Assembly (NCBI GenBank): GCA_003569165.1
Contig: BGOI01000018.1
Span: forward strand, 1-37,910
Source: Opitutia bacterium
GTDB taxonomy: Bacteria; Verrucomicrobiota; Verrucomicrobiia; Opitutales; UBA953
DNA: 37,910 bases
Direction: 5' to 3'
Position numbers and translations under genes: made by a program. Each line of letters opens with the position of its first letter. The stretch's first letter is position 1. Of the stretch, positions 10,274 through 31,157 are shown piece by piece. The notes below the pieces were generated by a model. It ran no database searches and had not been told where the DNA came from. It saw only the letters and a program-made list of their open reading frames with translations.

Positions 10274-10282
10274 GCTGGTTTT

Positions 10283-13417: not shown

Positions 13418-13436
13418 GATTTTTAAAGTAGGCTAA

Positions 13437-13464
13437 GTTCTTGGTTCTTAGTTCTTGGTTAAGA
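13437..13464. repeat. Left arm of inverted heptamer repeats (GTTCTTG)
   Basis: Three 7-bp units on the plus strand (GTTCTTG, GTTCTTA, GTTCTTG) and a degenerate fourth (GTTAAGA), so GTTC recurs every 7 bp at 13437, 13444 and 13451. It lies 20-47 nt upstream of the DUF1501 start and mirrors the right arm at 13510-13537. Confidence 0.65.
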
Positions 13465-13509
13465 AACAAGGGCTAGGGGGTTGAGCGTGATATTGGGTGT
13501 GGCAGCTGC

Positions 13510-13537
13510 TAAGAACAAAGAACGAGGAACTGTGAAC
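13510..13537. repeat. Right arm of inverted heptamer repeats (GAAC every 7 bp)
   Basis: Four 7-bp units on the plus strand (TAAGAAC, AAAGAAC, GAGGAAC, TGTGAAC), the inverted form of the left arm. Over 22 bp the arms match at about 18 positions. The spacer is about 45 nt. The arm begins 20 nt beyond the stop of the DUF1553 gene. Confidence 0.6.
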
Positions 13538-13557
13538 ATCATATCTTCGATTGTGCG

Positions 13558-16506
13558 TCACGGATGCGTGATGCTTTCGTCCAGATTGAGGGCGGCGCGG
13601 GCGACGGCGGTCCAGATGTCCTGGTCGGCGACCTTGCGGGCGCGTTGGGCGGCGACGAAGGCCTTCATGGTCGCGAGTTCGTCGGGCGCGGGCGGGCGGG
13701 TCACGCAGCGGCGGAGCACGAACGTGATGCGGCCGTCGTCATCGCCGGCGGCGGCGATGGTCTTGGTGCCGAGGACGCGCGCGGCCTCCATGAACATCTC
13801 GTCATTGAGGAGCGTGAGCGCCTGAAGCGGGCTGTTGGAGACGTCGCGGCGGGCGATGCACGATTCGCCGGTCGGGGCGTCGAAGGTCGTGGCCATCGCG
13901 AACGGGGCGGTGCGCTTGATGAAGGTGTACAGCGAGCGACGGTAGCGGTCTTCGCCTTCGCTGACCTTCCATTCGATGCGTCCGTAGGTGCCTTCGCTGG
14001 TCACGCTGGCGGGTTGGGGCGGGTACACGCCCGGGCCGCCCATCTTGGCGGAGAGCAGGCCCGCGGCGCTGAGGGCGCTGTCGCGGACGATCTCGGCGTC
14101 GAGGCGGAAGCGGCTGCCGCGGGCGAGCAGGAGGTTCTCACGATCCTTCTCGGCAAGCTCACGCGTGACGATGGACGACTGGCGATACGTGCCACTGGTG
14201 ACGATGAGGCGATGGAGTTTTTTCATCGACCAGCCGGACTTCACGAAGTCGACGGCGAGCCAGTCGAGCAGCTCGGGGTGCGTGGGCGGCTGGCTCTGGT
14301 AGCCGAAATCCTCGAGCAGACGCACGAAGCCGTGTCCGAAGAAGGCCTGCCACTGGCGATTGACCGCGACGCGCGCGGTGAGCGGGTTCTCCGGCGCGAA
14401 GAGCCAGCGGGCGAACGTCAGGCGGTTGGCCGGAGCGTCCTTGGGCAGGGCGGGCAGGAAGGCCGGCACCGCGGGCGGGACGGCTTGCTTGGGGCTGAGG
14501 TATTCGCCGCGGTGGTGGAGGAAGGTCGGACGCGGGTGGGCGGCCGGACGCTCGCGCATCACGAGCGTGGCCTGGCCGCGCGGGACTTGTTTGCGTAGGT
14601 TGGCGAGCGCCTTGGTGTGGGCCGAGAGTTCGGGGGCGGTCTCGAGGAAGCGCTGACGGAGCTTGGCTTGGTCGTGCGGGGCGGCGCCGGCAAGCATGGC
14701 TTCGATCTCGGCGGGATGGCCCGTGGCGGTGGCCTGCACGTCGGTCGTCACGGAGATTCGGAAATGTCCGACCGGAGCGGCGTAATGCTTTTCGAACAGC
14801 ATCTTGAGCGCCCAGCCCGCGGAGAGGTCGGTCGGCTGGTCAAAGTGGAAGACCGCGACATGATTCTGACCGAGGCCGCCGAGGACCTGCCAGCCGCTGG
14901 ACATCTCGCCGTCCAGCGCGGCCGAGGCGTTGTTCTTCTTGCGGTTGGCGGCGGCCTTGGGCGCGGCCGCGGCATCACTGATCCGGTCTTCCTCTTCGTC
15001 ATTGGTCGCGGTAGCGTCGTCGAACTTCAGGCGTCGGTCGCCCTGCCAGGCCTGGAATTCGCTGAGGAAGAAGCCGCCGAGCGGGCCTTCGTAATTCGTG
15101 AGGCCGGGGCCGTCGTTGGGCAGGAGCGGGTGGGGCGCGACTTCGATGCGGATGGCGATGGCGCCTTTGATGGCCCGGTCGAAGGCCAGGTCGTAGACGT
15201 CGCTTTTCGTGATGTCTCCGCCGCCGAGGATGAAGCCGTCAGGCTGCACGTCGAGTGTCGGCATCGTGGTCTTCAGCTGGCTCGGGCGGAGCGTCTCCCA
15301 TTTCGCGGCGCGCTGGCTTTCGGCGTTCAGCCATTCGCCGAAGCGCTTCTCGACGGCCGCGGGGCCGCCGGGGAACTTGCCTTCGAGGGATTCTTCCGCC
15401 GCGCGGATCTTCTTCGCGTGGTCGGCCTGGCGCTGCGCGAGGTCGGCCGGCGGGATATGATAGGTCGGCTCGTCGGCGTTGTTGAGCAGCGCCATCACCG
15501 AATAGTAATCGGTGTGCAGGATCGGGTCATACTTGTGCGTGTGGCACTGGGCGCAGTTGAGCGTGAGGCCCATCCAGGTGGCGCCGGTGGCGCCGACGCG
15601 GTCGACCATGGAGTAGAAGCGGTATTCGTTCGGATCGGCACCGCCTTCTTCGTTGAGCATCGTGTTGCGGTGGAAGCCCGTGGCGATGAGGTCTTCGGGC
15701 GTGGCGCCCGGGAGGAGGTCGCCCGCGAGCTGTTTGATGCTGAACTGGTCGTAAGGCAGGTCGGCGTTGAGGGCCTTCACGACCCAGTCGCGGTAGGGCC
15801 AGATCGAGCGGGGGCGGTCCTTCTCGAAACCGTTCGTGTCCGCATAGCGGGCGAGGTCCAGCCAGCGGCGCGCCCAGCGTTCGCCATAGCGGGGCGAAGT
15901 CAGCAGGCGGTCCACGAGCTTCTCGTAGGCGTCGGGAGATCGGTCGTTGGCGAAGGCGTCGGCCTCTTCGGGCGTGGGCGGGACGCCGGTGAGGTCGAGG
16001 GTGACGCGGCGCACGAGCACGTAGCGATCGGCTTCGGGCGAAGGCTTGAGTCCTTCCTTGTCGAGGCGGGCGCGGACGAACGCATCGATGGGATGATTGG
16101 AGCCCTTTGGCAGGGGGGCCTGCTTCGGTGCGAAGAACGCCCAGTGGTCCTGATACTTGCCGCCTTCGGCGATCCAGGCGCGGAGGATGGCCTTGTCCTT
16201 GTCGGACATGGGCTTCTTCGATTCCGGCGGCGGCATGAGCTCGTCGCTGTCGTGCGAGAAGATGCGGCGGACGACTTCGCTCTTGTCCGGCTGGCCGGCG
16301 ACGATGGCGAGTTCGCCTGACTTGCCTTTGCCGTGGGCCGATTCCGGGAGGTCGAGGCGCAGCTTGGCCTTGCGCGAGTGCTCGTCCATGCCGTGACAAG
16401 CGAAGCAATGCTGGGCGAGGATCGGGCGGACTTCCTGGTTGAAGTCGACGGCGAGGAGGCGCGTGGCGACAAGCAGAAGCAGGGGGGCGGACGAAAGGCG
16501 GAGCAT
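13558..16506 (-). CDS. DUF1549/DUF1553 planctomycete-type cytochrome c protein
   Basis: Intact, 982 residues from MLRLSS, chosen because it begins a clean signal peptide; the longer frame to 16581 has no such start. PSCyt1 domain with CFACH at residues 34-38 and a LMPPPESKKP distal region. DUF1549 follows (~140-340: RRVTLDLTGVPPTPEEADAF, RYGERWARRWLDLARYADTN). A second CxxCH, CAQCHTHKYDP, lies near 345. The C-terminal DUF1553 (~715-960) has NPLTARVAVNRQWQAFFGHG. These large proteins are presumed periplasmic multi-domain c-type cytochromes; the reaction is unknown. The DUF1501 partner follows. The upstream intergenic region is shared with the divergent hydrolase gene at 16640. Confidence 0.94.
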   Translation of the reverse strand: MLRLSSAPLLLLVATRLLAVDFNQEVRPILAQHCFACHGMDEHSRKAKLRLDLPESAHGKGKSGELAIVAGQPDKSEVVRRIFSHDSDELMPPPESKKPMSDKDKAILRAWIAEGGKYQDHWAFFAPKQAPLPKGSNHPIDAFVRARLDKEGLKPSPEADRYVLVRRVTLDLTGVPPTPEEADAFANDRSPDAYEKLVDRLLTSPRYGERWARRWLDLARYADTNGFEKDRPRSIWPYRDWVVKALNADLPYDQFSIKQLAGDLLPGATPEDLIATGFHRNTMLNEEGGADPNEYRFYSMVDRVGATGATWMGLTLNCAQCHTHKYDPILHTDYYSVMALLNNADEPTYHIPPADLAQRQADHAKKIRAAEESLEGKFPGGPAAVEKRFGEWLNAESQRAAKWETLRPSQLKTTMPTLDVQPDGFILGGGDITKSDVYDLAFDRAIKGAIAIRIEVAPHPLLPNDGPGLTNYEGPLGGFFLSEFQAWQGDRRLKFDDATATNDEEEDRISDAAAAPKAAANRKKNNASAALDGEMSSGWQVLGGLGQNHVAVFHFDQPTDLSAGWALKMLFEKHYAAPVGHFRISVTTDVQATATGHPAEIEAMLAGAAPHDQAKLRQRFLETAPELSAHTKALANLRKQVPRGQATLVMRERPAAHPRPTFLHHRGEYLSPKQAVPPAVPAFLPALPKDAPANRLTFARWLFAPENPLTARVAVNRQWQAFFGHGFVRLLEDFGYQSQPPTHPELLDWLAVDFVKSGWSMKKLHRLIVTSGTYRQSSIVTRELAEKDRENLLLARGSRFRLDAEIVRDSALSAAGLLSAKMGGPGVYPPQPASVTSEGTYGRIEWKVSEGEDRYRRSLYTFIKRTAPFAMATTFDAPTGESCIARRDVSNSPLQALTLLNDEMFMEAARVLGTKTIAAAGDDDGRITFVLRRCVTRPPAPDELATMKAFVAAQRARKVADQDIWTAVARAALNLDESITHP

Positions 16507-16639
16507 AGGGCTGAGGGGTCGCCGGGCGGGGTGCGTCGGGATGACCATAAGACAGTCAAGACCGCCCGGGGTTGCGAGCAATTAGCAGGCAGGGGTTCGC
16601 GGTTGCGGGCCTATGATAGGTGGCTAATTTTGCGATGTC
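16507..16639. promoter_or_regulatory. Divergent intergenic region
   Basis: 133 nt between the minus-strand DUF1553 gene and the plus-strand hydrolase. It holds the minus promoter-like element (16548-16577). For the plus gene, TTGCGG with TAATTT 16 nt further on (-10-like) and a small palindrome CCTATGATAGG (16610-16620) lie just before the start. The two related segments GTTGCGAGC and GTTGCGGGC (about 30 nt apart) may be repeated binding sites. Confidence 0.4.
16548..16577 (-). promoter_or_regulatory. Promoter-like element TCGCAA-N18-GTCTTA
   Basis: TCGCAA (16577-16572) and GTCTTA (16553-16548), 18 nt apart, 41 nt upstream of the DUF1553 start at 16506. Unlike the copies at 48-77 and 11925-11954, this one leaves room for a normal leader. 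Its upstream box lies in a 12-mer identical to 71-82. Confidence 0.55.
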
Positions 16640-17705: not shown

Positions 17706-19133
17706 TCACTTCTTTTTCTTCTTCGCGCCGGCTTTGCCGGCTTCCGCGCCGAGCGCTGGGCCGTTGTCAGCCGGCAGGGAGCGATGCCAGGCGAGCACCG
17801 CGGCCGTGAGGCGTTCGGTGACGGCGGATTCCTTAGCAGCAAGGTTCGTCATCTCTCCGACATCTTTGGAGAGGTCATAGAGGAGTGGCTTAGAGCCGTC
17901 ATATTCGCACAACAGTTTCCAATCGCCTTCGCGGACGGCGAGGTCGGGCTGTGGAACCGCCAGGGCAGGGAGCCAGACCTTTCGTTCCGGCGGACGGCGC
18001 CAGAAGATCGCGCCAGGGTGGGAGGCCGGCGCTTGACCGAGTAGCGTGGCCGAAAGGTCCGCGCCATCGAGTCCCTGGGGTGCCTTCGTGCCGGCGAGGT
18101 GCGCCAACGTAGGGGCGAGGTCCATCGCGGCGAAAACCGAGGCGGCGTCGAGGGTGCCGACCTTGGCTTTCTCCATGAGTCCGGGGGCCCAGACGACAAG
18201 GGAGGAGCGGATGCCGCCTTCGAAGAGCTGTGATTTCTTGCCGCGGAACGGGCTGGCGCTGCCGGCACCTGGTTCGGGTCCGTTATCGGAGCAGATCACG
18301 AAGACCGTGTTATCGCGTAAGGCGGCATCGCCGCGGATGCGCTCGAAGAGGCGGCCGAGCTGTCGGTCCATCTCCTCCAGCACGGCCAGGTAGATCTGGT
18401 GTTTCTCTGGCGACCATTTCTCGAGCGGAGGGAAGTAGGGGCTGTGGACGTCGTCGGGCCAGACATCGACATAGAACGGCTGCTGCTTGGCCGCGGCTTG
18501 GTCGATGAACTTCAGGGCCGCGTCGGTATAGCCGGTGGTGATCTCCGTGCGGTTCATCCAGGTGACCGGGCCGCCGAGGCGTTCGGCGTCGGCCCAGATC
18601 TTCTTCGGCTCCTTGTCGCCGGGCTTGAGCGTGAGAGGGAGGAGCTTAGGTCCCATCCCTTCGAAATTGGTCAGCGAGGCGTCGTAGCCGTAGGCCGTGA
18701 TCGCGGGGGCATCGTCGACGTCGCGTTGGCCGCCGAGGTGCCATTTGCCAAAATGCCCGGTCGCGTAGCCGACTTCTTTGAGCGAGCGAGCGAGCGTCGG
18801 GGCTTTCAGGTCGAGCCACTGGGCGTTGCCGCGGCGGGTGTTTTCGGCGCGGTTATCGAGGAAGGAGTTGATGCGCCAGCGCTGCGGGTATTGGCCTGTC
18901 ACGAAGGCGCAGCGGGAAGGGGAGCAGATGGGCGAGTTGACGTAGAACTGGGAGAAGCGGAGTCCTTCGGCCGCCAGGCGGTCGATGTTAGGCGTCTTCG
19001 CTTCCTTGTTGCCGAAGCACGAGAAGTCGCCCCAGCCCATGTCGTCGATGAGCACGAAGACGAAGTTAGGCTGGCGGGCTGCTTGGGCGCAAAGGCTGAA
19101 GCAAAGCCAAGAAATGAGCAGGGCGTAACGCAT
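17706..19133 (-). CDS. Secreted type I sulfatase 2
   Basis: Intact, 475 residues. Signal peptide MRYALLISWLCFSLCAQAA; metal-binding DD (LIDDMGWGD, 30-31); formylglycine motif C70-S-P-S-R74. GKWHLGG and VICSDNGPEP complete the site. Extracytoplasmic sulfate ester hydrolase, substrate unknown. The C-terminus is lysine-rich (AGKAGAKKKKK). A canonical -35 (TTGACA at 19173-19168) with a weak TAAGCC 17 nt on lies just upstream, inside the 45-nt gap after sulfatase 3, so it may be transcribed independently as well as by readthrough. Confidence 0.93.
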   Translation of the reverse strand: MRYALLISWLCFSLCAQAARQPNFVFVLIDDMGWGDFSCFGNKEAKTPNIDRLAAEGLRFSQFYVNSPICSPSRCAFVTGQYPQRWRINSFLDNRAENTRRGNAQWLDLKAPTLARSLKEVGYATGHFGKWHLGGQRDVDDAPAITAYGYDASLTNFEGMGPKLLPLTLKPGDKEPKKIWADAERLGGPVTWMNRTEITTGYTDAALKFIDQAAAKQQPFYVDVWPDDVHSPYFPPLEKWSPEKHQIYLAVLEEMDRQLGRLFERIRGDAALRDNTVFVICSDNGPEPGAGSASPFRGKKSQLFEGGIRSSLVVWAPGLMEKAKVGTLDAASVFAAMDLAPTLAHLAGTKAPQGLDGADLSATLLGQAPASHPGAIFWRRPPERKVWLPALAVPQPDLAVREGDWKLLCEYDGSKPLLYDLSKDVGEMTNLAAKESAVTERLTAAVLAWHRSLPADNGPALGAEAGKAGAKKKKK

Positions 19134-19178: not shown

Positions 19179-20588
19179 TTAACGCCAGAGCGGTTCGGCC
19201 TGCGTCTTGCTCCACGCTTCCCATCGAGCAATCAGGGTCTTGGTCAACTCTTGGTGGCTCGCGGACACTTCCCTCTTTTCGGAAGGGTCAGCTTCCAGGT
19301 CGTAGAGTTCCCAGCGGGGGCCACCCTTGAAGAGTTTCCACTTCCCGGATCGCAAGGCGCCACTTTTGCCGACGCGCCAGTAGAGCGTCTCGTGGAGGGG
19401 GCCGACGTCAGGATTTACGAAGAGTTTGCGCAGGTCTTTGCCGTCGGCATCGGCCGGAGTCGCGACGCCGGCGGCGGCGAGTGCCATAGCGGTGAGATCG
19501 GTGGAGATGACGGGGGTCTTGATGACCGTTCCGGGCTTCGTCACGCCGGGCCAAGTCACCGTAAAGGGCACGCGGATACCGCCTTCGAGCAGCTGGCCTT
19601 TTTCGCCGCGGAGGGGGTGGTTGCTTGAGGTGAGCTCGCGCGTGGGGCCGCCGTTGTCGCTGAGGAAGACGATAATCGTATTCTCGGTCTGCCCATTGGC
19701 GTCGAGCTTGGCCATGAGTTTGCCCACGGATTCGTCGAGGTGCGTGAGCATCGCGGCGAAGATGCGTCGTTGCACGTCGGGGATATCCTTGAAGCGAGCC
19801 ATGTGGGCGTCGGTTCCCTGCATCGGGCTATGGACGGCGTTGTAAGCGAGATAGAGGAAGAAAGGTTTGTCTTTCGTGCGGTCGAAGAAGTCCATCGCCT
19901 CGTGCGTGAACGCATCCGTGAGGTTGCGAGGTTCTTCGATGGCCTTGTCGCCGCGCATCATGGGGTTGTCTTTGTTGTATTCCGGTTCGTCGGACTTCAG
20001 GTGGTCGCTCTCGATCAGGCGGCCATCTGGCGAGGTCCAGCGCCCCATGGCGCCATCAGGCAAGTTCTTCCGGCGCAGCCAGGTGGTATTTCCCTTGCCG
20101 ATTGCGGGCTCGAAGTAGCGGCCTTCGTGGAGGAAGCCGAAGAAGTCAGCGAAGCCTCGCTGTTTCGGGTGGAAGGGGGCGGTGCCGCCCAGATGCCATT
20201 TGCCGACCAGACCCGTGTGATACCCCGCGGTGCGCAGGCGATCGGCGATGGTCGGTACGCCGACGGGCAGGCCGATGCCAGGTTCCAGGTTCTTGCTGCC
20301 GATCGGGTTGAATTCGAAACCAAAGCTCGTCTGGTAACGGCCAGTCAGCAGGGCGGCCCGAGAGGCGGCGCAGAAAGGAGCGGTGACGTAGCCATCCGTG
20401 AAGCGTGCGCCCTTCGCGATGAGCCGATCGATGTTCGGCGTCGGGATGCCGTTGCCACCATAGCAACCCAACTCTCGGTAGCCGAGGTCATCTGCGACGA
20501 TGAACAAGACGTTGGGCTTCTTCGTTTCCGCCGCCAGAAGCGGTGCTAATGAAGTGAGCAACAGGCTGAAGAAGGTGAGTGGCTTCAT
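19179..20588 (-). CDS. Secreted type I sulfatase 3 (CxAxR motif)
   Basis: Intact, 469 residues from MKPLTFF, preferred over an upstream in-frame start because it begins the signal peptide. Metal-binding DD (IVADDLGYRELG), GKWHLGG and FLSDNGGP are present. The maturation motif is C73-A-A-S-R77: Ala replaces the usual Pro, which the consensus C/S-x-P/A-x-R allows. Extracytoplasmic sulfate ester hydrolase. Unlike its neighbours it has no lysine tail, ending AEPLWR. It follows the FAD oxidoreductase gene after 99 nt. A candidate element TAGCAA-N18-TAGTGT (20632-20603) precedes it. Confidence 0.93.
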   Translation of the reverse strand: MKPLTFFSLLLTSLAPLLAAETKKPNVLFIVADDLGYRELGCYGGNGIPTPNIDRLIAKGARFTDGYVTAPFCAASRAALLTGRYQTSFGFEFNPIGSKNLEPGIGLPVGVPTIADRLRTAGYHTGLVGKWHLGGTAPFHPKQRGFADFFGFLHEGRYFEPAIGKGNTTWLRRKNLPDGAMGRWTSPDGRLIESDHLKSDEPEYNKDNPMMRGDKAIEEPRNLTDAFTHEAMDFFDRTKDKPFFLYLAYNAVHSPMQGTDAHMARFKDIPDVQRRIFAAMLTHLDESVGKLMAKLDANGQTENTIIVFLSDNGGPTRELTSSNHPLRGEKGQLLEGGIRVPFTVTWPGVTKPGTVIKTPVISTDLTAMALAAAGVATPADADGKDLRKLFVNPDVGPLHETLYWRVGKSGALRSGKWKLFKGGPRWELYDLEADPSEKREVSASHQELTKTLIARWEAWSKTQAEPLWR

Positions 20589-20687
20589 CGGGATACGAGC
20601 CGACACTATCGACGTAGGTCCTCGCTTTGCTACGCTTTATTCAGGCGCGCAGGTTCTAATTTTCGGCAATTGGCAGGGGGCAGATTC

Positions 20688-22752
20688 TCAGCGCTTCACC
20701 GGCAGCCACTGCACGGCGTCGACGATCACGTGTCCGTCGGTGCCGACGTTGGAGATCTCGACCCAGCCGGCCTGACCGGCGCTGAATTCGAAGGTGCCGA
20801 CGACGTGGAAGAGGCCGTCGACGGCGGGCTTGAGCTTCTGGTTCACGAGGACCTTGGTCTCGCCCTGGGCGTGATGAATCGTCACCGGAACGTTTGTGGC
20901 GCGGTTACCATTGATGCTGTAGGAGACCGCGACGCGGTAGGAGCCGGCCGAAGGCAGGGCGCTAGTGAAGCGGGCGGTCATGGCACCTTTCTCGGCGTTG
21001 CCATCGTGGCGATAGCCATCGCCGACATAGCCTGGGGAAGTGTGGCCGGTGGATTCGAACCCTTTGAGCGTGGCGGCGGCGTCATCGACGACGACCCCGG
21101 CGAGTTTCGCCTTATCCACGCCGTGGCCGGCTGCGGCGGTCGTCACGAAGTCGAGCATCTGGCCGTTGGCGAGGAGGCGTTCCTTGAGTGCGCCGTAATC
21201 GACAGCCTGCACGGAGGTATTGCCTTCGATGGCGAGACCAGCGGCGGTGGCGGCAGACTGACCCATGACCATGAAGACGGGCTCCATGCGGATCGAGCCG
21301 TAGGCGATGTGGCTCGCGCTCAGGCAGACCGGCACGAGCAGGTTGGTGCATTCGGAGGCGCGCGGGCGGATGCTCCGGTAGCTGACGGGGTAGGGTTTGC
21401 TACCGACTTGGATGTCGCCCTCGTTGCGCACGAAACCTTCCTTGGTCACGAAGCGCTGGATGTGGTGCGAGTCCATCTGGTATGCGCCCATGCCGACGGA
21501 GTCCTCGATGACTTCGACCCGGCGGCAGTTCTTCTCGGACATCACGTAGTCGGCGATCATGCGGCGGGCTTCGCGGACGTAGAGCTGGCGGGGCCAGTTG
21601 CCGTTATCGTTGAACTCATCCTTCGCGAGGCCGAGTTTTTGGAAGGCCAGGCGCATCTTCTCGGGCACACGCGGGTGATAAGCATAGGTCCACATCAGGC
21701 CCTTCTGCCAGTCTTCGTGGGCCTGCCAGATCTTGGCGCGGGTGGCGTAATCGGCGTCAGCGTAATCCCAGTTCTGGCCGATGAAGTCGGTGCTAATCGC
21801 GAAGTTGTTGTTCGTATCCGTCTTGCGGTTGGGCATCGGCGTCGGGGCCCAGGAGTTGCGGTCTTCGCCGGCTTCGACGTTGCGGAGGGCGAGTTCGTAC
21901 CAGCGTTCGTCGTAGTTCGCCGGCTTCTCCCAGTCGCGACGGTTCTCCGGCACGTCCGTCGTGCACATGCGGAAGTTGTAGGCCTGGATTTTGCGGTCGC
22001 CGGAGCCATCGGGACCGGGGATTTCTTTTTCAATGCCGGGTAGCAGTCCGCTGGTAGGGTCGCCCTTCTTGACGTAAGGGTCGACCTCGACCTTGAATTG
22101 GTGGGAGCGCGCGTGGCCGACCTGCACGCCGTTGAGCGTCTCGCCGTAGGTGGCGTTGGCTTCGCGGCCGACATGGTAGCTGACGCCGGCTTTGGCCATC
22201 AGGTCGCCTTCATAGGTCGCGTCGATGAACATCTTACCGGAAAACTCGCGGCCGCTCTCCATGACGATTTTCACGATGCGCGTGCCGTCCTTGACCACGC
22301 CCTTCTTGAGGTCGAGACGTTCGCCAAAGACGACGGTGACCTTGTCGCCTGCCGCCTTGAGCATCCGATCGTAGATGGCGGAGGCCACGTGTGGCTCGAA
22401 GGTCCACATCGTACCTTCGTCGGCGGCGTTACCGTGAGGGCGCTTCGAGAAGTAGGCTTCGCGGGTCTGGTGGACCCACTTCTTCTCGTCCGCGTAATGC
22501 GAACCGATGGCCGTGTAGAATTCGCGGGAGATCCCGCCGATGGCCTTCTTGTTGCCGATGTCCGTGGCGCCGAGGCCGCCGGTGGTCAGGCCACCGAGGA
22601 ACTTGGTCGGCTCGATGAGTACCGCTGTGCGGCCTTCGCGGGCCGCCTGGATGGCCGCGGTGATGCCGCCGGATGGTACCACCGTAGATGACGATGTCCT
22701 GGGCGGGGAGGGCGGCGGTCAGGCCGAGCAGGGACAGCAGCAGGGGGCGCAT
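20688..22752 (-). CDS. FAD-dependent oxidoreductase with golvesin-like C-terminal domain (one frameshift)
   Basis: About 687 residues. The N-terminus MRPLLLSLLGLTAALPAQ is a signal peptide. Then comes IVIYGGT, and after an apparent one-base insertion near 22676, SGGITAAIQAAREGR, which together form the FAD-binding Rossmann loop. The family is the 'FAD_oxidored' group common in Verrucomicrobiota and Planctomycetota (FIDATYEGDLMAKAG; SIRMEPVFMVMGQSAATAAG near the C-terminal flavin contact). The last ~130 residues (GYVGDGYRHDG...VIVDAVQWLPV) resemble the golvesin/xanthan-lyase carbohydrate-associated beta domain. Probably periplasmic oxidation of a sugar or glycoside, electron acceptor unknown. 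It lies 49 nt after the DUF1552 gene, whose operon may read into it. Confidence 0.87.
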
Positions 22753-22801: not shown

Positions 22802-24036
22802 TTAAGAGCGGAGCCCGCGCAGGGTTCCGGTGCTGGTGGCGAACTTATCGGCCTCGACCCCGAGATTCTGGAGCATGCTCACGTAGAGGTTGGCCAGCGG
22901 GGTGTTGTTGACGGTGTCGAATGCGAGGTGCTGGCCGTGGCGGAAGCCACCCCAGCGAGGATCAGCGGGAGGTTCTGATTGCTGTGCGAGTTGGCGTTAC
23001 CGAGGCAGCTGCCGTAGAGGATCTGGGTGCGGTCGAGGAGGTTGCCGCCGGTTTCGCGGGTGTCGCGGAAGCTCGAGAGCATCTCGCCGAAGACGGCAAG
23101 TTGGGCTTCCTCAATCTTACGGAGCTCGGCGATCTTATCCGGCTCGTTGCCGTGGTGCGTCAGGCCGTGGGTCTCGTTCTTTACGCCGGGCACGTGCGGT
23201 ACGACGGAGAAGGTGCTGAGCGAAAGCGTGACGACGCGGGTGCTGTCGGTCTGGAGCGCGAGGCGGACGAGGTCGAACATCAGGCGCGAGCGGGCGACGA
23301 CCTCGTTGGCGTCGGCGATGTCCTTCGGCATCGGATAATCGACCTTCGGCTTGGGTCTGTTCTCCCAAGCGATGCTGCGTTCGAGGCGGCCTTCGAGCTC
23401 GCGCACGCTCTGGAAGTATTGATCGAGACGGGCGCGGTCCTGCGGGTCGGAGCTCTTTTCGAGTCGCTTGGCCTTGTCGAGGATCAGGTCGAGCACGCTA
23501 CCGCCGGCCTGGATGCGCCGCATCGTGGCGGCTTTCTCTTCGGGCGTGCCGGCGACGAAGAGCTTGCGGTAGAGCCGTTCGGCGCTGGCCTCGGACGGCA
23601 GGATGACGCCGGAGCGGGAGACGGCCACGGAATCGGCGTAATGTTCGCCTTGGCGGACCGCCACGGCGAGCGAGGCGAAACGGGTGTCTTCGCCGATCTT
23701 CTCAGCGACGAGTTGGTCGAGCGAAAGGCTATTACGGAAAGTTGGCTGACCCGGGTGCGGCGCGCCGGAGAGGAAGCATTGCCCGGCGTGGTGATTGCCA
23801 TCGACGCCGGGGTGGGAGAGTCCCGCGAAAGTCGTGAACTGGTCGCGCTGTTTCGCCAGCAGGTCGAGGTAGGGGCTGGAAGTCTCACCGGCCTTAGGGA
23901 AGAAGTAAGCGGGCATCATGCCCAAGGGCACGTGGATGGCCAGCAGGCGCTTGGGCGGAGCCTTCTCCGCGGCTTTGGCGAGGGCTGGCAGGGCCAGACA
24001 GGCGCCGGCAGCGAAGAGGAAGTCACGTCGGTTCAT
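22802..24036 (-). CDS. DUF1552 Tat-exported protein (one frameshift near the end)
   Basis: About 411 residues. Twin-arginine signal [19 protein letters not shown]. The DUF1552 body includes [33 protein letters not shown] and [17 protein letters not shown]. The frame breaks near 22947: one G lost from a run of five, after which [20 protein letters not shown] and a conserved C-terminus read to the TAA at 22802. Function unknown. DUF1552 proteins pair with DUF1592 cytochrome proteins; here the partner's stop lies 2 nt upstream of this start, so coupled expression is likely. Confidence 0.88.
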
Positions 24037-24038
24037 GG

Positions 24039-26660
24039 TCAGCGAGAAGTGGGAAGGAAGAGCGGGCTTTGGGCGAGGGCGTGGAGGAGCGAGCGCAGGC
24101 CGTAGCCGTTTGCTTTGGTCTGGGCGACGATGCGGCGGATCTCGGCCCGGTCGGCGAAGCTGATTTCCGTGCCTGTGGCGTAGCGGGCGAGGTGTGCCAC
24201 GAACGCGCGGGCGAGTTTCTCATCGTCGGACGCGAGCAGTTCGACGAACGTGGCCGTGTCGCGGAAGGCGCGGCCGTCGCGTAGTTCGCCGGAGGCGTCG
24301 ACCGTCGGGCCGAGCTTATATTCCACCTTCCAGTCGGTGTGGCCCTTTTCGGGCGGCAGGTCGCCTTGGCCGTTAGAGCGATAGCGCGAGCGTAGGCCAC
24401 CGACCGGGTCAAAGGCTTCGAGGGCGAAGCCTGGCGCGTCGATCTTGGCGTGGCAGGCGGCGCAGTTCGGGTCGGAGCGGTGCTTGGTCAGCTGTTCGCG
24501 GATCGTCGTCGTACCGCGGGTATCAGGGTCGACCGCGGAGATGCCCGGCGGTGGCGGCGGGGCGGGGTCGTTCAGGAGTCGATCGGAGACCCAGACGCCA
24601 CGTTTGACGGGGGAGGTCGTCGTGCCGTTGGCGGTCAGCTTATGGATCGCGGCTTGGCCGAGCAGGCCACCGCGCAAGCTTTCTGAGGGAAGGGTCACCT
24701 TGCGCTGCTCGACGCCCGTGACGCCCTTGATGCCATAGTGTTCGGCGAGACGCTGGGTGAGCATGGCGAAGCCGGGCTTCAGCAACGAACGGGCCGGGAG
24801 GTCCTTGGTGATGAGTTCACGGAGGAAGGCGGGGGTCTCTTCAGCGACGCCTTGGCCAAGCAGGAAGCGGTATTCCGGGTAGAGCAGGGGGTCGGGATTG
24901 GTCTCGTCGAGCCGGCCGAGCTCGAGCCACTGGCGCGCGAAGTCCTGGGTGAAGCGTTCGGAGCGCGGATCAGCGAGCAAACGGTCGATCTGGGTGCGGA
25001 GCACTTCGGGACGGTGGAGCGAGCGGTCGCGGGCCGCGGCGAGGAGCGCTTCATCCGGAGGGCCGTTCCAAAGCCAATAGGCGAGGCGAGCAGCGAGGGC
25101 TGCGTCGTCGTCCGGCGCGGGGAGGAAGAGGAATTCCGGCGAGGTCAGCACGGCGACGTACACCCGGCGCATGGCGTCCTCGAAGCAATCCTTGGCGTCG
25201 AGCCGTGTCTGCAGGAGTTTCAGGTAAGGTTCGATCTCCGATGCGGTCACGTCGCGGCGAAACGCTCGTGGAAGGAAGTCGGCGAGGAGTTTGCGAGCGT
25301 CTTCGAGGGGCTGGTCGGAACTGACCGTCTCGAGCTTCGGCGTGCGCTCGGCCGGCGTCAGATCGAGGTGCATGCTCGGCAGGTAGCCGCCGATGCTCCT
25401 GATCTTCTCGCGTCGAGGCGGGATGATATCGCTCCCGGCGTCGAACGGCTTGATCGGGAGCTGGCCAAAGAGGCGCGCATGGCTCACCGGCGGCCAGACC
25501 GGGTTGAGCGGGCCTTCGATTTCGAACCAGTCGAGGGCGACGCCGGGGCCGACATGTTTGGCGGCTCGTCCGGCGACCTGTCCGATGCGCAATCCGTTCC
25601 AAGGCACCGACACCGGGTCGAAGACGATCGATTCATGGGCGTCGAGCCAGGTGACGATCTCGCCTTCCTTTGATTCCATGGACGGAGCCGTGAACGCGGA
25701 GAGGAGTCGGCCGCCTTCTTGCTGTTTACCTTCTTCGTGGGCGCGCAGGACCGCGGCTTGGGGTGCGTCGCAGGGATTCGGCTTACCGTTCGCCCAGCGG
25801 AAGCCCCAGACCGACAGTCGCAGGCGATAATTACCTGCGAAGATCGGTGAGACGTTCATCGCGGCCTCATAGCCGGCGAGGTTGGGGTTGAGCAGGCCGA
25901 CGGCGCTCTGGCTCGTGGCGACCGCCGGGCTCTTGACCAAGGCACCACGTTCCTTGAGGTCGGGACCTTCGAAGCCGACGTGGCCCTTCTTATTCTCGTG
26001 GCCGCCGCGGACGGGCAGGGCGGGGTCGGGCTGCTTGTCCTTGAGCAGCACGTATTGTCCGTGGGAGAGGTTGCCGCCAAACTTGAATAGCCCCGCCGGG
26101 TAGATGCGCTTCTGATACACCCGCGGGGCGGTGCTCTGTGTGGCGATCGCGACATCGAGCGCCTTCTCGATCGCTTCTTGGTAAGCCGCGAGATGGCCGG
26201 GAGAGAGATCGAGGCCGCTACCGATCTTGTCGTAGCCGGCGACACGACCATCGGCCGGCAGGAGCGACTGGATGTCGAGGCGGGGTAGGGCGAGGAGGTC
26301 CTTGAGTGAATTCTCGAATTCGCCGCGGGTGAGCCGACGCAGGGAGATGCGGGTCGGGCTGGCCTCTTTCGAGGCGGTAGACAGTCGGGTATCAAGTGAG
26401 GTGACGAAGGCGGCGCTCTCCGCGGCCGAAGGACGGACCTTTTTCTTGGCCGGAGGCATCTCGCCCTCGGTGACGGCGTCATGGATCTTGATCCACCGGT
26501 CGAGCTGCTGCTTTTCCGAACCAAGCGATTCGAGGTCGAGTCCGCCTTTCTTCGTCTCCTTGTCGTGGCACTCGTAGCAATGCTGCTCGAGGAATGCCCG
26601 CGGTTCCGCCGCCGAGGCGAGGGCGGAGAGCAAAGTCAGGATGGCGAACCGTAGGGACAT
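24039..26660 (-). CDS. DUF1587/DUF1592/DUF1588/DUF1585 cytochrome c protein
   Basis: Intact, 873 residues. Signal peptide, then a cytochrome domain with CYECH at residues 28-32 and EGEMPPAKKK as distal ligand region. DUF1587 follows near 105-170 (RRLTRGEFENSLKDLLAL). An inserted beta-rich region lies at ~170-400. DUF1595/DUF1592 follow (LPRAFRRDVTASEI, RRVYVAVLTSPEFLFLP). DUF1588 (KRGVWVSDRLLNDPAPPPPP) contains a second CxxCH, CAACHAKIDAPGF. DUF1585 is at the end. Presumed periplasmic or surface cytochrome of unknown reaction. It starts 1 nt after the tandem SGNH gene and is followed after 2 nt by DUF1552, so the genes are tightly linked. Confidence 0.94.
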   Translation of the reverse strand: MSLRFAILTLLSALASAAEPRAFLEQHCYECHDKETKKGGLDLESLGSEKQQLDRWIKIHDAVTEGEMPPAKKKVRPSAAESAAFVTSLDTRLSTASKEASPTRISLRRLTRGEFENSLKDLLALPRLDIQSLLPADGRVAGYDKIGSGLDLSPGHLAAYQEAIEKALDVAIATQSTAPRVYQKRIYPAGLFKFGGNLSHGQYVLLKDKQPDPALPVRGGHENKKGHVGFEGPDLKERGALVKSPAVATSQSAVGLLNPNLAGYEAAMNVSPIFAGNYRLRLSVWGFRWANGKPNPCDAPQAAVLRAHEEGKQQEGGRLLSAFTAPSMESKEGEIVTWLDAHESIVFDPVSVPWNGLRIGQVAGRAAKHVGPGVALDWFEIEGPLNPVWPPVSHARLFGQLPIKPFDAGSDIIPPRREKIRSIGGYLPSMHLDLTPAERTPKLETVSSDQPLEDARKLLADFLPRAFRRDVTASEIEPYLKLLQTRLDAKDCFEDAMRRVYVAVLTSPEFLFLPAPDDDAALAARLAYWLWNGPPDEALLAAARDRSLHRPEVLRTQIDRLLADPRSERFTQDFARQWLELGRLDETNPDPLLYPEYRFLLGQGVAEETPAFLRELITKDLPARSLLKPGFAMLTQRLAEHYGIKGVTGVEQRKVTLPSESLRGGLLGQAAIHKLTANGTTTSPVKRGVWVSDRLLNDPAPPPPPGISAVDPDTRGTTTIREQLTKHRSDPNCAACHAKIDAPGFALEAFDPVGGLRSRYRSNGQGDLPPEKGHTDWKVEYKLGPTVDASGELRDGRAFRDTATFVELLASDDEKLARAFVAHLARYATGTEISFADRAEIRRIVAQTKANGYGLRSLLHALAQSPLFLPTSR

Positions 26661-26661
26661 C

Positions 26662-28497
26662 TTAACGTTTCAAGGCGGCGTCGACAGCGACCTTCAACTT
26701 GGCGGCGAAGACCTCGTAGCCGGCGAGATTCAAGTGCAGGTATTTATCGGAATACAACTCGCTCTTCAACGAGCCGTCGGCGTGGGTGAAGTCGGCCGCG
26801 ACATCGATGACGCGGACCCGGGGGTCGGCGTCGAGTTTGAGCGCATCGAGGGCGACGTTCACCTCGCGGACCTTGGCGCCGACCTCTTTGCTCGGGTCGA
26901 AGGCCGGCAGGATCTTCACGACGATGATCTGCGACTGTGGGCAGCGGAGGCGGAGGTTCTCGACGCAGAGTCGGATCCCATGGGCGGCGGCGCTGACAGG
27001 CACGCCGTTGCCCTGGATGAGCGGGGCGTTGTTCACGCCGATCTTTAGGACGATCACCTTGGGCGAGGCGCCGTCGAGGGCGCCGTGGTCGAGTCGCCAA
27101 AGGATGTGTTCCATACGGTCACCGCCGATACCGAGGTTCACGGCTTTCAGTCCGCTGAAATATTTCTGCCAGGCGGTGTTGAAGGGCGTGCCGTCGAAGC
27201 CACCGCCCCAGCCTTGGGTGATGCTGTCGCCGATGAGCGCGACATCGATGGCGCCGGCGGCCTTCACGTTTGCGATATTGGTCGCGTGATGCGCAAGCCA
27301 GACATTGCCATAGGTCGCATCCTTGCCACGCCAGCGTCCGGCAGTCGGGGTGACGAACCACATCTCGGGCAGATGCTTCTTGATCTCGTGTCCCGGTTTG
27401 CGGGTGTATTCGTCTTTATTGGCCCAAGCCATTTCGGCTTCGGTCAGCGGCCAACCCGTCAGCTGAGGGTCGAGCTTACCCTCGTTGTAAGGGGTGTAGG
27501 GGTAGAGGAGCGATTTTCCGTCCGCGGATTTGGGCGTCGGACCTTCGGGCGTAGAAGGCTTCGCCTCGGGTGCCGAACCGGGTTTGGTCGAGGTCTCCTT
27601 CTTGGGGATGACGACCGCGGAGCCCAGTCCCTTGCCGCCGAGGGTTGCGTCCAGTAGAGGTTTGAGGCGGGTGGCATAGACTTCGTAGCCAGCGAGGGAC
27701 AGGTGGATATTATCCGGGGTGAAGAGCTCTTTCTTGATCGTACCGTCTTCGTTGAGGAAATCCTTCGTCAGATCGAGTAGCTTGACCTTCGGGTCGGCGC
27801 CGAGGTTCAGTTTATCAATCTCAGCGTTGGTCAGGAGGATGTCCTCGTAGAAACGTGCCTTGGGTGCGTGGCAGGGCAGGATCTTCGCGACGACCACGTC
27901 GGCTTCGGGGAATTTTTCGCGGAGGTTGGCGAGGCAGGCCTTCACGCCTTGGGCGGCGGCGGCCACGCCGGTCTCGGGCGTGAAGAACATGTTGTTGTTA
28001 CCGATCATCAGCACGATGGCCTTAGGCTTCAGCCCATCGACGCCGCCGTGGTCGAGGCGCCAGAGCACGTTCTGCGCTTTATCGCCGCCGATGCCGATGT
28101 TGATCGTCTTCGCGTCAGGGAAGGCCTTCAGCCAAGCGGCGTTCAGCACGCCCTTGTCGAGCGGGCTGCCCCATTGCTGGGTGATCGAGTCGCCGACGAG
28201 GAGCACATCACAGGGCCCCGGGTTCGCTTGGACGTAGGTGACCAGCTTCGCGTGCGTATCGACCCAGGAAGTGCCACCCCAGGTGCCGGCGGAAGGTACG
28301 GCCGGCCAGAGCTGCGGGAGGTGTTGGTTGTTCTCTCGCCCCGGGCGACGTTCGTATTCCGGCTTCGCGATGAACGCGCTTTCCTCCGCCGTGAGCGGCC
28401 ATCCCGTCGGTTGAGGGTCGGCTGGCTTGTGGGCGTATTCGAGGGCGGGTAGGGCTGAGCCGAGCAGCAGGGCGGCCAGGGTGAGGCGTAGGTTCAT
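26662..28497 (-). CDS. Tandem two-domain SGNH/GDSL hydrolase
   Basis: Intact, 611 residues with a signal peptide. It contains two homologous SGNH domains of the PAF-acetylhydrolase type joined by a Pro/Lys/Ser-rich linker (~300-330). Domain 1 has S104 in GDSITQQW, GIGGDK, IGNNN and D262/H265 (DNIHLS). Domain 2 has S425 in GDSITQGW, GIGGDR, IGVNN and D584/H588 (DKYLHLN). Each domain is preceded by the same lead-in (PTGWPLTAEES... and LTGWPLTEAEM..., then a conserved HLP-W), so the whole precursor minus its signal was duplicated. Both active sites look intact. Probable extracytoplasmic carbohydrate esterase. It overlaps the upstream small membrane gene by 4 nt. Confidence 0.93.
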   Translation of the reverse strand: MNLRLTLAALLLGSALPALEYAHKPADPQPTGWPLTAEESAFIAKPEYERRPGRENNQHLPQLWPAVPSAGTWGGTSWVDTHAKLVTYVQANPGPCDVLLVGDSITQQWGSPLDKGVLNAAWLKAFPDAKTINIGIGGDKAQNVLWRLDHGGVDGLKPKAIVLMIGNNNMFFTPETGVAAAAQGVKACLANLREKFPEADVVVAKILPCHAPKARFYEDILLTNAEIDKLNLGADPKVKLLDLTKDFLNEDGTIKKELFTPDNIHLSLAGYEVYATRLKPLLDATLGGKGLGSAVVIPKKETSTKPGSAPEAKPSTPEGPTPKSADGKSLLYPYTPYNEGKLDPQLTGWPLTEAEMAWANKDEYTRKPGHEIKKHLPEMWFVTPTAGRWRGKDATYGNVWLAHHATNIANVKAAGAIDVALIGDSITQGWGGGFDGTPFNTAWQKYFSGLKAVNLGIGGDRMEHILWRLDHGALDGASPKVIVLKIGVNNAPLIQGNGVPVSAAAHGIRLCVENLRLRCPQSQIIVVKILPAFDPSKEVGAKVREVNVALDALKLDADPRVRVIDVAADFTHADGSLKSELYSDKYLHLNLAGYEVFAAKLKVAVDAALKR

Positions 28498-28847
28498 GGG
28501 AGGGGGCAGAAGGTCTGGTAGGCTTGGAGGGCTCCGCCAAGGAGCATGAGGAGCGCCGAGGGTATCAGGCGCAGGCCGCGATGCTGATCGTGAGGTTTGG
28601 CCATTTCATTAATTAGGTCCAGCTGTCCCAGGCAGAAAACTTGAGCGCCGATCAAGGTGATCGGTAAGCCTGACCAATACTGCAGGCCCATCGTCACGAA
28701 GACCAAGATGGTCGCAAGTTGGGCGTAGATCTTGAGCGCTAAGATGAGGCCGCGTTTGTACGGATTCTCTGCCGGCGGTATTCTCATCTGCCAGATCTGG
28801 CGACCGGCGATGTGGGGTTCGGTCATCTTGGTAGGTGGCACGTGCAT
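28494..28847 (-). CDS. Small membrane protein of unknown function
   Basis: 117 residues, not recognised. Two or three hydrophobic stretches (ILVFVTMGLQYWSGLPITLI, around LIPSALLMLLGGALQ) suggest an inner-membrane protein. The ATG at 28847 follows the upstream TGA directly; an internal ATG (MTEPHIAG) is possible. It overlaps the next gene by 4 nt (ATGA). Its position between the anti-sigma-like gene and the esterase suggests a partner in signalling or export, but the sequence itself gives no function. Confidence 0.7.
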   Translation of the reverse strand: MHVPPTKMTEPHIAGRQIWQMRIPPAENPYKRGLILALKIYAQLATILVFVTMGLQYWSGLPITLIGAQVFCLGQLDLINEMAKPHDQHRGLRLIPSALLMLLGGALQAYQTFCPLP

Positions 28848-29789
28848 TCAGCGGGCGGCTAACTCGGCTTTATTCTGGCGCGTGCGGAGGGTCAGGCGGA
28901 TATCGTCTGCGTATTGGGCGCCGAGTTTGGGCGAAGCCTGGCCGGGTTGGCCGGCGCTGCCGGCACCGAGTTGCACGACGAGGAAGCCGGCGGTGGGCGG
29001 CAGGACGCAACGGGTCGTGAGGGTCTGCCAGCCGGCGCCGCCGTGCATGACTTGGAACTGCGCGCCGCTACCGAGGACTTGGTCGGCGGCCGGGGGCCAG
29101 TTGCCTACGATCGATGCGGGGTCGCCTTCGAAGACGTAGACTTTGGCGATGAAGCGCACGGGCTGCGCATGAGCCGGGCGGGCGTCATGGATGTTCGCCT
29201 GCAGTTCGACGTAAGCCTCGCTGGAGGTCAGGAGTTCCGTGCGCACGGACTTGAGGCCGATGACTTGAAAGACATCGCAGGACTGGCGCGGGCTGTTGGG
29301 GATGTTCGGTTCACCAGCGGCCTCGAGGAAACGCAGGGCGGTGGGATGGCCGGCGACGGAGGCGACTTCGCTGGGGTCGCCGCCCCAGGTGAAGATTTCG
29401 GAGGGGAAGCCGTCGGGCATGTGGCCCTTGAGCGCTTCGAAGCCGCCGTCGTGGATGCCGAGTGGGCGCGTCTCGGCGTGTTCGGCGCGGGCCGAGAGCA
29501 GCCAGCCGAGCGAGGCGACGGTCAGGCCGACAGCGAGGAGCATGGCCGCAAGGCCAAGCGTCCGGCTGCGCGAGGGGAAGTCGATCGGCTTGGTGGGGGC
29601 GGTTGCTTGGTCGAGGTTAAGTCCGTCGAGCGCGGCGTGCAGCTGGCCATGGAAGGCGGCATCAGTGCGGAAGCGGGCGCGGGCTTCGGGGTCGGTGCGG
29701 AGGAGCGCGCTGAGTGCGGTTGCTTCCGCCGGAGTCAGGCGTGACTCCGACCAGGCGTCGAAGAGGAATTGGTAACGTTCGTCGTTCAT
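28848..29789 (-). CDS. Anti-sigma-like membrane protein with periplasmic jelly-roll-like domain
   Basis: Intact, 313 residues. Residues 1-55 form a helical cytoplasmic segment typical of PVC anti-sigma/FecR-like proteins (FDAWSESRLTPAEATALSAL, LRTDPEARARFRTDAAFHGQ). A single membrane helix lies at ~77-99. The periplasmic part (~105-313) is beta-rich, with DGGFEALKGH..., aromatic-rich strands, two Cys that could pair, and a closing YADDIRLTLR reminiscent of CBM4/9-like jelly rolls. It overlaps the sigma gene by 4 nt (ATGA), which strongly supports the anti-sigma role. The likely job is holding the sigma factor at the membrane until a ligand binds outside. The ligand and the domain assignment are inference. 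Confidence 0.75.
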   Translation of the reverse strand: MNDERYQFLFDAWSESRLTPAEATALSALLRTDPEARARFRTDAAFHGQLHAALDGLNLDQATAPTKPIDFPSRSRTLGLAAMLLAVGLTVASLGWLLSARAEHAETRPLGIHDGGFEALKGHMPDGFPSEIFTWGGDPSEVASVAGHPTALRFLEAAGEPNIPNSPRQSCDVFQVIGLKSVRTELLTSSEAYVELQANIHDARPAHAQPVRFIAKVYVFEGDPASIVGNWPPAADQVLGSGAQFQVMHGGAGWQTLTTRCVLPPTAGFLVVQLGAGSAGQPGQASPKLGAQYADDIRLTLRTRQNKAELAAR

Positions 29790-30324
29790 GAAAGTTCTGA
29801 GGTGCCGAGCGTGCGATCGACGCAGGCGCGGAGGGTCTGGCGGGCGCGGGTGAGGGCGACGCGCACGGAGTTGGGCGTCCAGCCGACGGCGGGGGCGATG
29901 TCTTCCGGCATCTGCCCGAGGTGGTAGCGGCGGCGGATGAGGTCGCCGCCTTGGGCGCGAGTTTGCCGAGCAAGCCCTTGAGTGCTTTGGGTGCGCGGCT
30001 CGAGCATCTCAGGCGCCGGACCATCTTCCCCGTAAGCATCTCCATCACGTCGTCGTCCAGCCGTGCGGCGGCCCGGGCGCGGTTGCGTTGAAACTGCAGG
30101 GCTTGGTAGCGGGCGACCGTGCAGGCCCACGCGGGGAAGTTGGTGCCGAGGGCGTAAGTCTCCGCCTTGCGGCTCACGGTCAGGAACGCTTCCTGCACGA
30201 TGTCCTGGGCGTCACCGAGGTTCGGTTCGATCGTCAGGACGTAATATAGAACCACCTGCTGGTGCTGGACGAAGAGTCGCTGCACCTGCAGGGTGTGGTC
30301 GGAGGGGGTGGGGGAGTCTCCCAT
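29786..30324 (-). CDS. ECF-like sigma-70 family factor, Rhodopirellula/Verrucomicrobium type (three indels)
   Basis: About 179 residues from the ATG at 30324; the TTG six bases upstream is less likely. Region 2 is clear (LFVQHQQVVLYYVLTIEPN, DAQDIVQEAFLTV, FPAWACTVARYQALQFQR). Region 4 is clear in another frame (DLIRRRYHLGQMPEDIAPAV, then PNSVRVALTRARQTLRACVD). Between them the frame shifts near 30016, 29985 and 29950; two G losses and one C gain restore a continuous linker (GEDGPAPEMLEPRTKALKGLLGKLAPKG). It directs RNA polymerase to a specific promoter set. The stop overlaps the anti-sigma start by 4 nt. A perfect hairpin sits 6 nt upstream of the ATG. Confidence 0.85.
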
Positions 30325-30330
30325 ACGCAA

Positions 30331-30354
30331 GAGACCGCCAGGGGGTGCGGTCTC
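30331..30354. promoter_or_regulatory. Palindrome/hairpin just upstream of the sigma factor start
   Basis: A perfect 8-bp inverted repeat GAGACCGC (30331-30338) and GCGGTCTC (30347-30354) with an 8-nt loop. It ends 6 nt before the ATG at 30324, where a ribosome-binding site would lie. It could be an operator or an mRNA hairpin masking initiation. A second small inverted repeat, TCAGG-AAAA-CCTGA (30361-30374), lies upstream. Confidence 0.5.
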
Positions 30355-30375
30355 GTAGCATCAGGAAAACCTGAC

Positions 30376-30390
30376 GGCGGGGCAACCGCC
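30376..30390. terminator. Possible weak terminator after the SGNH hydrolase
   Basis: GGCGG-ggcaa-CCGCC (30376-30390) forms a 5-bp GC stem 12 nt after the stop at 30403. On the minus strand the adjoining 30361-30374 repeat adds a TTTT loop but no terminal U-run, so termination here is doubtful. Confidence 0.25.
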
Positions 30391-30402
30391 GACGGGGCCT
30401 AT

Positions 30403-31146
30403 TTAGGAGGCGGGCTTGGGGAGCTCGCGGGTGATGACTTCGGCGACCTGCTTGGCCAGTACGGCCTGAACCTGAGGCCATGAAGTGGACGTTACGCTTC
30501 CCCTGCAGTTGGTCCTGCTTGGCTTCACGGCGGCCCAGAGGTCGTTCCAGGCCACGCCTTCCTCGGCCATGACCTTCTTGGCCACGGCGTGTAGGGGAGT
30601 TCGGAGTCCTTGACGTATTTAGCGGCGTCGGATTCCGGGACCGGTGTCGTGCTGCCGAAGATGAGCTTGGCCCCGGTCTGCTTCAGGCGGGCGATGAATG
30701 AGGCGGAGAGGTTCTTCTCGTATTGCTCGACGGAGACATTGGGTCGGCCGCCGTTGGTCGGCGAAGCGGTAGTCGCCTTGATCGTTCTTATCGCGGTCGT
30801 CCGGGAAGCGGTAAGACAGGTCGTGCAGGCCTCGTTGAAGTGGATCACGTCCCCATTTCTCGCCCGGCTTCAGCCAGCGGATGAGGCCGTAGTCGCCAAG
30901 GCCGTGCGGGTCGAGCCGCCGTTAGCAGGGATGCGGTGGACGTTGGCGACGCCGGCGAGGTTCTTGCGAACGTCGAGCGTGTAGGCGACCGAGACCGAAT
31001 CGCCGATGATGAGCACGCGCGGCAGCTTAGGGTCGTCGACGATCGGGGGCGAAATTCCTTGCGCACCGTCGGCGCGCTCTTGGTGGCGGGCGTATCCGCG
31101 GCGAAGCCGAGGGCGGCCATGAAGCTCGGCAGAGGATCGCGCGCAT
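30403..31146 (-). CDS. SGNH/GDSL hydrolase (several frameshifts)
   Basis: About 250 residues when the frames are joined: a short N-terminal signal-like segment, [20 protein letters not shown] (nucleophile Ser in GDS), then [50 protein letters not shown] and a C-terminal [16 protein letters not shown]. At least five 1-nt indels interrupt it. The Asp-His near the end (nvHFMASG) is consistent with the family. Probable exported carbohydrate esterase. It starts 11 nt after the upstream esterase gene and so belongs to the same operon. Confidence 0.7.
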
Positions 31147-31157
31147 AAAGTCGGATC

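Follow-up and report, generated by a model that had tools for sequence, protein, structure and literature searches.

In FecI/FecR surface signalling, an ECF sigma factor is followed by a one-pass regulator, and RsgI anti-sigma factors have carbohydrate-binding outer parts. Surveys of planctomycete ECF sigma factors reportedly note sigma/cytochrome contexts as well. In Rhodopirellula, an ECF sigma factor was proposed to regulate a DUF1549/DUF1553 protein (Studholme et al., via PMC2754498), and the same source gives Rhodopirellula baltica 41 copies each of two PSCyt-type domains. We found 2 to 59 DUF1592 matches per genome in nine Verrucomicrobiota genomes. Among freshwater Verrucomicrobia, PSCyt3-type genes usually lie beside one unknown family, and sulfatases occur near PSCyt genes, for which a carbohydrate role was proposed (PMC5615132). 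According to that 2017 article, nothing was known of the functions of PSCyt-type proteins; the word sigma is absent from its main text. The preliminary description of the DNA analysed here knew of no named system with the same composition. Our literature search (titles and abstract starts, with few subscription journals) likewise returned no paper on a DUF1592-DUF1552 composition, on such a sugar-module anti-sigma factor or on an anti-sigma/PSCyt fusion, but the Rhodopirellula proposal (PMC2754498) is a forerunner. With a little more belief than doubt, we read the locus as a glycan-sensing, self-regulated ECF switch for a planctomycete-type cytochrome operon.

The window, that is, the whole stretch of 37,910 nucleotides that was analysed, is from contig C18 of an assembly of 2.03 Mb in 37 contigs (86.6% complete). 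Six genes follow each other on the minus strand from 30324 to 22802. The features of the locus and its flanks, in the direction of the genes, are:

30400 to 31150 (approximate ends), minus strand: SGNH/GDSL hydrolase gene upstream of the sigma gene, frame-broken; open in G027, absent in G012
30334 to 30360, minus strand: conserved element TGCTA(A)YG-N14/15-GCGGT upstream of sigma, ending 9 nt short of its start codon, from an alignment of five species
29786 to 30324, minus strand: ECF sigma factor gene, frame-broken (Sigma70_r2 3.8e-12; weak r4_2 piece, 0.0093, in another frame)
28848 to 29789, minus strand: candidate anti-sigma factor (N-terminal helices 3-56, membrane helix at about 76-102, outer jelly-roll domain 104-305)
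28494 to 28847, minus strand: small membrane protein, optional by comparison with relatives
26662 to 28497, minus strand: tandem SGNH/GDSL hydrolase with two domains (Lipase_GDSL_2 3.8e-46, two stretches in Pfam)
24039 to 26660, minus strand: planctomycete-type cytochrome, PSCyt1-PSD3-PSD5-PSD4(DUF1592)-PSCyt3-PSD2, with two CxxCH motifs
22802 to 24036, minus strand: DUF1552 (HXXSHH) protein with a Tat-like leader (PF07586 8.1e-71; one-base frame break near 22951)
20688 to 22752, minus strand: FAD oxidoreductase with a golvesin-type C-terminus, the next downstream gene (frame break near 22674)
28447 to 31155, minus strand: segment missing in G010 and G015, which holds the GDSL gene, sigma, anti-sigma and small membrane protein

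From sigma to DUF1552, the five junctions are -4 (sigma stop 29786, anti-sigma start 29789), 0 (28848/28847), -4 (28494/28497), +1 (26662/26660) and +2 nt (24039/24036). Pfam and the ORF coordinates bear out the families, the order and all five junctions of the preliminary description, with two corrections. Its sigma gene belongs to the ECF family but is not an open frame in the window, owing to three single-base indels. Its DUF1552 gene is rightly named, but the frame stops at 22879 and reaches 22802 only across a one-base shift.

The intact sigma ortholog in L009 (181 amino acids) has regions 2 (2.3e-12) and 4 (r4_2, 4.6e-7) and a length near 180 residues, which define an ECF sigma factor; its region-3 match stays under that family's cut-off. 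It belongs to TIGR02989 (Sig-70_gvs1; 140.4 bits, curated cut-off 124.55), and SigI is not in the 25 listed of the 75 NCBIfam families matched. A second intact ortholog, that of L031, is also over the cut-off (140.1 bits). In the window, ORF 29662-30330 holds region 2, with the remainder in other frames, and this broken copy alone scores 88.0 bits over 112 positions, below 124.55.

The gene directly after the ECF sigma gene, which it overlaps by 4 nt, encodes a helical cytosolic part, one membrane helix and an outer domain, the layout of membrane anti-sigma factors. The membrane helix was placed by hydropathy, as pLDDT is low there, and the other parts were taken from a structure model built on 20 sequences (mean pLDDT 78.4); a first model from 6 sequences (pLDDT 53) was too poor to search. 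In the later model, the outer domain (104-305) is a predicted jelly roll nearest to sugar-binding modules, with a CBM-like fold. Comparing its sequence with those of solved structures brought no usable hit (best E 0.0015 over 25 residues). The window protein has no Pfam match up to E 0.1 and no NCBIfam match up to E 1. No Pfam anti-sigma domain was over a cut-off in it or in its 20 homologues scanned, and FecR (PF04773) was found neither in it nor among the 7 families listed for these homologues (E up to 1). This membrane protein is a candidate anti-sigma factor and probably sugar-detecting. The "anti-sigma-like sensor" named earlier is indeed a one-helix membrane protein after the sigma gene, but one that no Pfam or NCBIfam family recognizes.

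The DUF1592 protein has two CxxCH motifs, CYECH and CAACH, and six Pfam families over cut-off; its PSCyt1, PSCyt3 and PSD domains and haem motifs identify it as a PSCyt protein. The DUF1552 protein starts MNRRDFLF, and its Pfam TAT_signal score is 17.2 bits, under the cut-off of 22.7. In the second SGNH domain, a Lys replaces the Asp of the first domain's DxxH (KYLH and DNIH, aligned on His). G156 and G026 lack the small membrane protein, which led us to reject it as a core part; it is present in L013 and G012, and G027 has a 34% relative. One of the six DUF1592 genes in the source genome, which is incomplete, lies beside a sigma gene. Elsewhere in the window, a second pair of another type (DUF1549/DUF1553 and DUF1501; 12002-16581) has no adjoining sigma gene. 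There are also sulfatases at 6159-7730, 17709-19133 and 19182-20606, a DUF7133 cytochrome-type protein over two meeting ORFs (7740-9482 and 9482-10312) and a cytochrome P450-like protein (4988-6151; PF00067, 7.5e-21).

The order of genes is not unique to this contig; it is seen again in the genus and, with either DUF1592-DUF1552 or DUF1553-DUF1501 as the pair, at some loci from other families. Close anti-sigma proteins (67-87% identity) were found in five others of the 38 genus genomes examined (G000-G036 plus G156), namely G026, G007, G027, G012 and G156, and G024 has a homologue at 30%. The 4-nt sigma/anti-sigma overlap is shared by G007, G012, G026 and G027. G156 (99% complete, 8 contigs) has sigma, anti-sigma, tandem SGNH, DUF1592 and DUF1552 in unbroken succession, each with an open frame, and this intact order, minus the small membrane protein, indicates that the arrangement is more than chance; its junctions are looser (4, 21 and 13 nt at three, by ORF ends). 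Directly before the G156 unit are sulfate-assimilation-type genes (L031:10441-15629), comprising a GTPase/APS kinase, two PAPS-reductase-type genes and a sulfite-reductase-type gene, and a sulfatase gene lies downstream. L013, from a metagenome-assembled genome, has a 98% identical anti-sigma fragment, then the small membrane protein, tandem SGNH, a broken DUF1592, DUF1552 and FAD. In G026, sigma (which begins on another contig) is followed by anti-sigma, a single-domain SGNH, DUF1592 and DUF1552, and G027 has sigma, anti-sigma, a sulfatase, the small membrane protein, SGNH and the start of DUF1592. G007 shows sigma, anti-sigma and the start of SGNH before the contig ends. In G012, one contig end carries sigma, anti-sigma and the first part of a sulfatase-type gene, and another carries a sulfatase-type end, the small membrane protein, SGNH, DUF1592 and DUF1552.

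Six genes as one fixed module, as first suggested, is more than these loci allow: two lack the small membrane protein, SGNH is single-domain in G026, no SGNH gene was found at the G120 locus, and G010 and G015 keep SGNH-DUF1592 with no sigma pair beside it. Across 57 genomes, the nearest DUF1592 relatives (79-94%) are those of G012, G015, G010, G026, G024 and G027. A genome-wide search of G010 and G015 found no anti-sigma; in both, 51 bases separate the BLAST match to the upstream esterase gene from the one to the SGNH gene, and the 2.7-kb block with the sigma pair is missing. The switch is thus separable from the enzymes. This raises the rival explanation that the sigma pair is a movable or erodible neighbour, packed by chance in a dense block of envelope genes and serving a wider regulon or nothing specific, and that the true unit is the esterase-cytochrome trio, driven by a promoter of its own. 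We consider this rather doubtful, but it does account for the trio with +1/+2 junctions in G010 and SGNH-DUF1592 with +1 in G015 (where the contig ends inside DUF1592), both without the pair, and for the variation of GDSL, sulfatase and small membrane genes at the same place. It also draws on the DUF1592 tree, in which G015 is the partner of the carrier G012 within a group that also holds the window. Against it, the sigma link turns up in three or more DUF1592 lineages with good support (probably four) and spans more than one family, and anti-sigmas elsewhere that have this inner part precede, or are fused to, the other cytochrome type. Because G015 groups with carriers, and the sigma-linked gene G212 C100 of another family branches next to the genus clade, loss of the block is the simpler history, at least for G015.

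A profile search with the anti-sigma in 387 phylum genomes gave matches in at least 37 genomes and at least 62 places, counted as scored candidates with at most 5 per genome in most genomes (G267/G367 and G368/G263 are near-duplicates). Among the matches listed, 18 cover much of the outer domain, and 16 of these are outside the genus. DUF1592 lies on the same strand within 5 kb downstream in five of the 16: G120 C7, G269 C50, G239 C10, G212 C94 (where DUF1552 comes first) and G212 C100 (where a TonB-receptor-like gene and SGNH stand between anti-sigma and DUF1592). Two others (G251 and G239 C1) have DUF1553-DUF1501 in this range. The remaining nine have neither type in range; they include G287 C29, with a divergent DUF1592-DUF1552 pair, and G287 C40, with DUF1501 and then DUF1553 farther away. 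How often the sigma/anti-sigma pair adjoins DUF1592-DUF1552 was a count proposed in the preliminary description. For DUF1592, the five neighbours observed are far more than the 0.11 expected under uniform random placement (Poisson) for the 14 of 16 loci covered by DUF1592 genome counts.

As a control, we used 40 of the 44 places that match only the inner part of the anti-sigma (N-terminus and membrane helix), leaving out G172 C184, G046 C17, G122 C4 and the second match in the G287 C40 frame; one sigma count for these loci took a sigma ORF anywhere in the locus. None of the 40 has DUF1592 in range (three have it elsewhere in the locus), and ten have DUF1553 in range (nine by script plus L100, whose overlap is over the script limit), six of them from one genus. 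The DUF1592 link was seen in 5/16 full-length against 0/40 inner-only loci (Fisher 0.0011), in 4/15 without G120 (0.0040) and in 4/16 by script count (0.005). For either cytochrome type, the script counts of 6/16 and 9/40 (p 0.21) are not clearly different. Therefore, the DUF1592 link goes with the outer domain, and a link to either type is no peculiarity of that domain. On the anti-sigma tree, the DUF1592 label takes 6 changes (shuffled mean 7.7; 68/500 as low), and on the DUF1592 tree the sigma-linked label takes 7 (mean 7.9; 165/500 as low), so the link was made or lost several times. A general TIGR02989-DUF1592 link was rejected: among 40 TIGR02989 loci from 145 phylum genomes (the 39 best-scoring of at least 150 and a partial one; contig ends truncate some) it is confined to L016 and L031, the two that carry the window-type anti-sigma. 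DUF1553-DUF1501 occurs at L023 (divergent) and L041 (upstream) in this set.

At three of the ten inner-part loci with DUF1553, in G292, G370 and G341, the inner part, hydrophobic stretch included, is fused to PSCyt1-PSCyt2-PSD1 (DUF1549/DUF1553) in proteins of 1155-1178 amino acids (L095:9554-13024, L100:9380-12844, L108:6428-9961), each encoded directly downstream of an ECF sigma gene. Two of these sigma genes were scored (L095 and L108), and both are TIGR02989 over cut-off. Such fusions are what would be expected if the cytochrome were the sensor and the anti-sigma responded to its partner's substrate turnover or redox state, not to a bound glycan. For the window we think this unlikely, as the proteins are separate there and the anti-sigma has a sugar-module-like domain of its own.

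The upstream element bears on how the switch may be controlled. TGCTAAYG-N14/15-GCGGT occurs once each in G156, G007, G012, G026 and G027, always at the sigma gene. The exact pattern has no match in the pair-less G010, G015, G018 and G011, nor in G000, the window copy being one base shorter; the backward control pattern has three matches in the 10 genomes. The pattern was derived from four of the five genomes, and therefore what is new is the fifth genome and the absence of second copies. A different element, CGGTAA-N16/17-ACATAC, stands upstream of four sigma genes of another family, f27 (L073:11393-11421, L075:8990-9018, L076:9031-9058 and L077:9001-9028), where DUF1592-DUF1552 and DUF1553-DUF1501 are found downstream alike. 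There are thus two lineage-specific elements, one of the genus (f1) and one of family f27. Counts of 6- and 7-mers upstream of 58 TIGR02989-like sigma genes gave no promoter motif common to all. The genus element is a candidate autoregulated promoter. If it is the promoter of its own sigma gene, it suggests a self-regulated local unit and not a large regulon.

Compared with relatives, the window has breaks between 20688 and 34010 in FAD, DUF1552, sigma, GDSL and sulfatase genes, those at about 30.4-34 kb included; SGNH, DUF1592, small membrane protein and anti-sigma are open between the broken genes. Alignment of the sigma DNA with four relatives shows three single-base indels (-1, +1, -1), and DUF1552 has one against two relatives, near 22951. 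We think it improbable that sigma is a pseudogene in the window's population, with the operon now constitutive or under another promoter, since for all the single-base indels in sigma (three), DUF1552 (one) and FAD (one) and the broken GDSL, esterase and sulfatase genes upstream, the metagenomic relatives have indels themselves (DUF1592 of L013, DUF1552 of L007) and the sigma region-2 piece, indels aside, matches four orthologs at 95-99% identity, which is what sequencing or assembly error, or very recent decay, would leave.

Our preferred reading remains the glycan-sensing switch. In the mechanism that we infer, a sigma factor of the TIGR02989 kind would be kept at the membrane by an anti-sigma factor, the outer domain of which is predicted to fold like a carbohydrate-binding module. 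Binding of a glycan or glycan fragment outside would release sigma, and the freed sigma would transcribe its own operon, as one transcript, starting at the element that closely precedes its start codon. The products would be secreted SGNH esterase(s), a two-haem DUF1592 cytochrome and a Tat-exported DUF1552 partner. Next to the neighbouring sulfatases, esterase and cytochrome pair may then deacylate and oxidise a sugar substrate. More tentatively, and with doubt outweighing belief, we propose a signalling class spanning several Verrucomicrobiota families, in which TIGR02989 sigmas would be gated by exchangeable glycan-binding or cytochrome-fused anti-sigmas; planctomycete-type cytochromes would serve inducible oxidation of extracellular sugars, the cytochrome sometimes being the sensor's outer half. 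A sensor with a sugar-module fold near both cytochrome types, and an inner part fused to one of them, offers a handle on the function of these cytochromes, and the ligand of the sensor, once found, may reveal their substrate class.

Among described systems, RB10049 (ECF sigma) and RB10051 (PSD1/PSC2) of Rhodopirellula baltica resemble the locus in that an ECF sigma factor was proposed to regulate a planctomycete-type cytochrome protein with a neighbouring number (PMC2754498). They differ in having DUF1549/DUF1553, not DUF1592-DUF1552, and the part of PMC2754498 that concerns them describes no esterase or sugar-module anti-sigma. Similar to FecI/FecR, the window has an ECF sigma gene followed by a one-pass regulator; the FecR domain is present in four sister proteins scanned, and in L080 anti-sigma and SGNH are separated by a gene that carries a TonB receptor plug. 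In contrast, the window anti-sigma has no FecR match, and no receptor was found beside it. In SigI/RsgI of Clostridium thermocellum, a membrane anti-sigma that detects biomass substrates outside the cell frees sigma to induce polysaccharide enzymes (PMC12203970, PMC4711584), much as proposed here. The window differs from it in its TIGR02989 ECF sigma, in an anti-sigma with no Pfam domain and in outputs that are cytochromes and esterases. By analogy, we predict that the window switch works like SigI/RsgI of clostridia, a likeness that need not imply membership.
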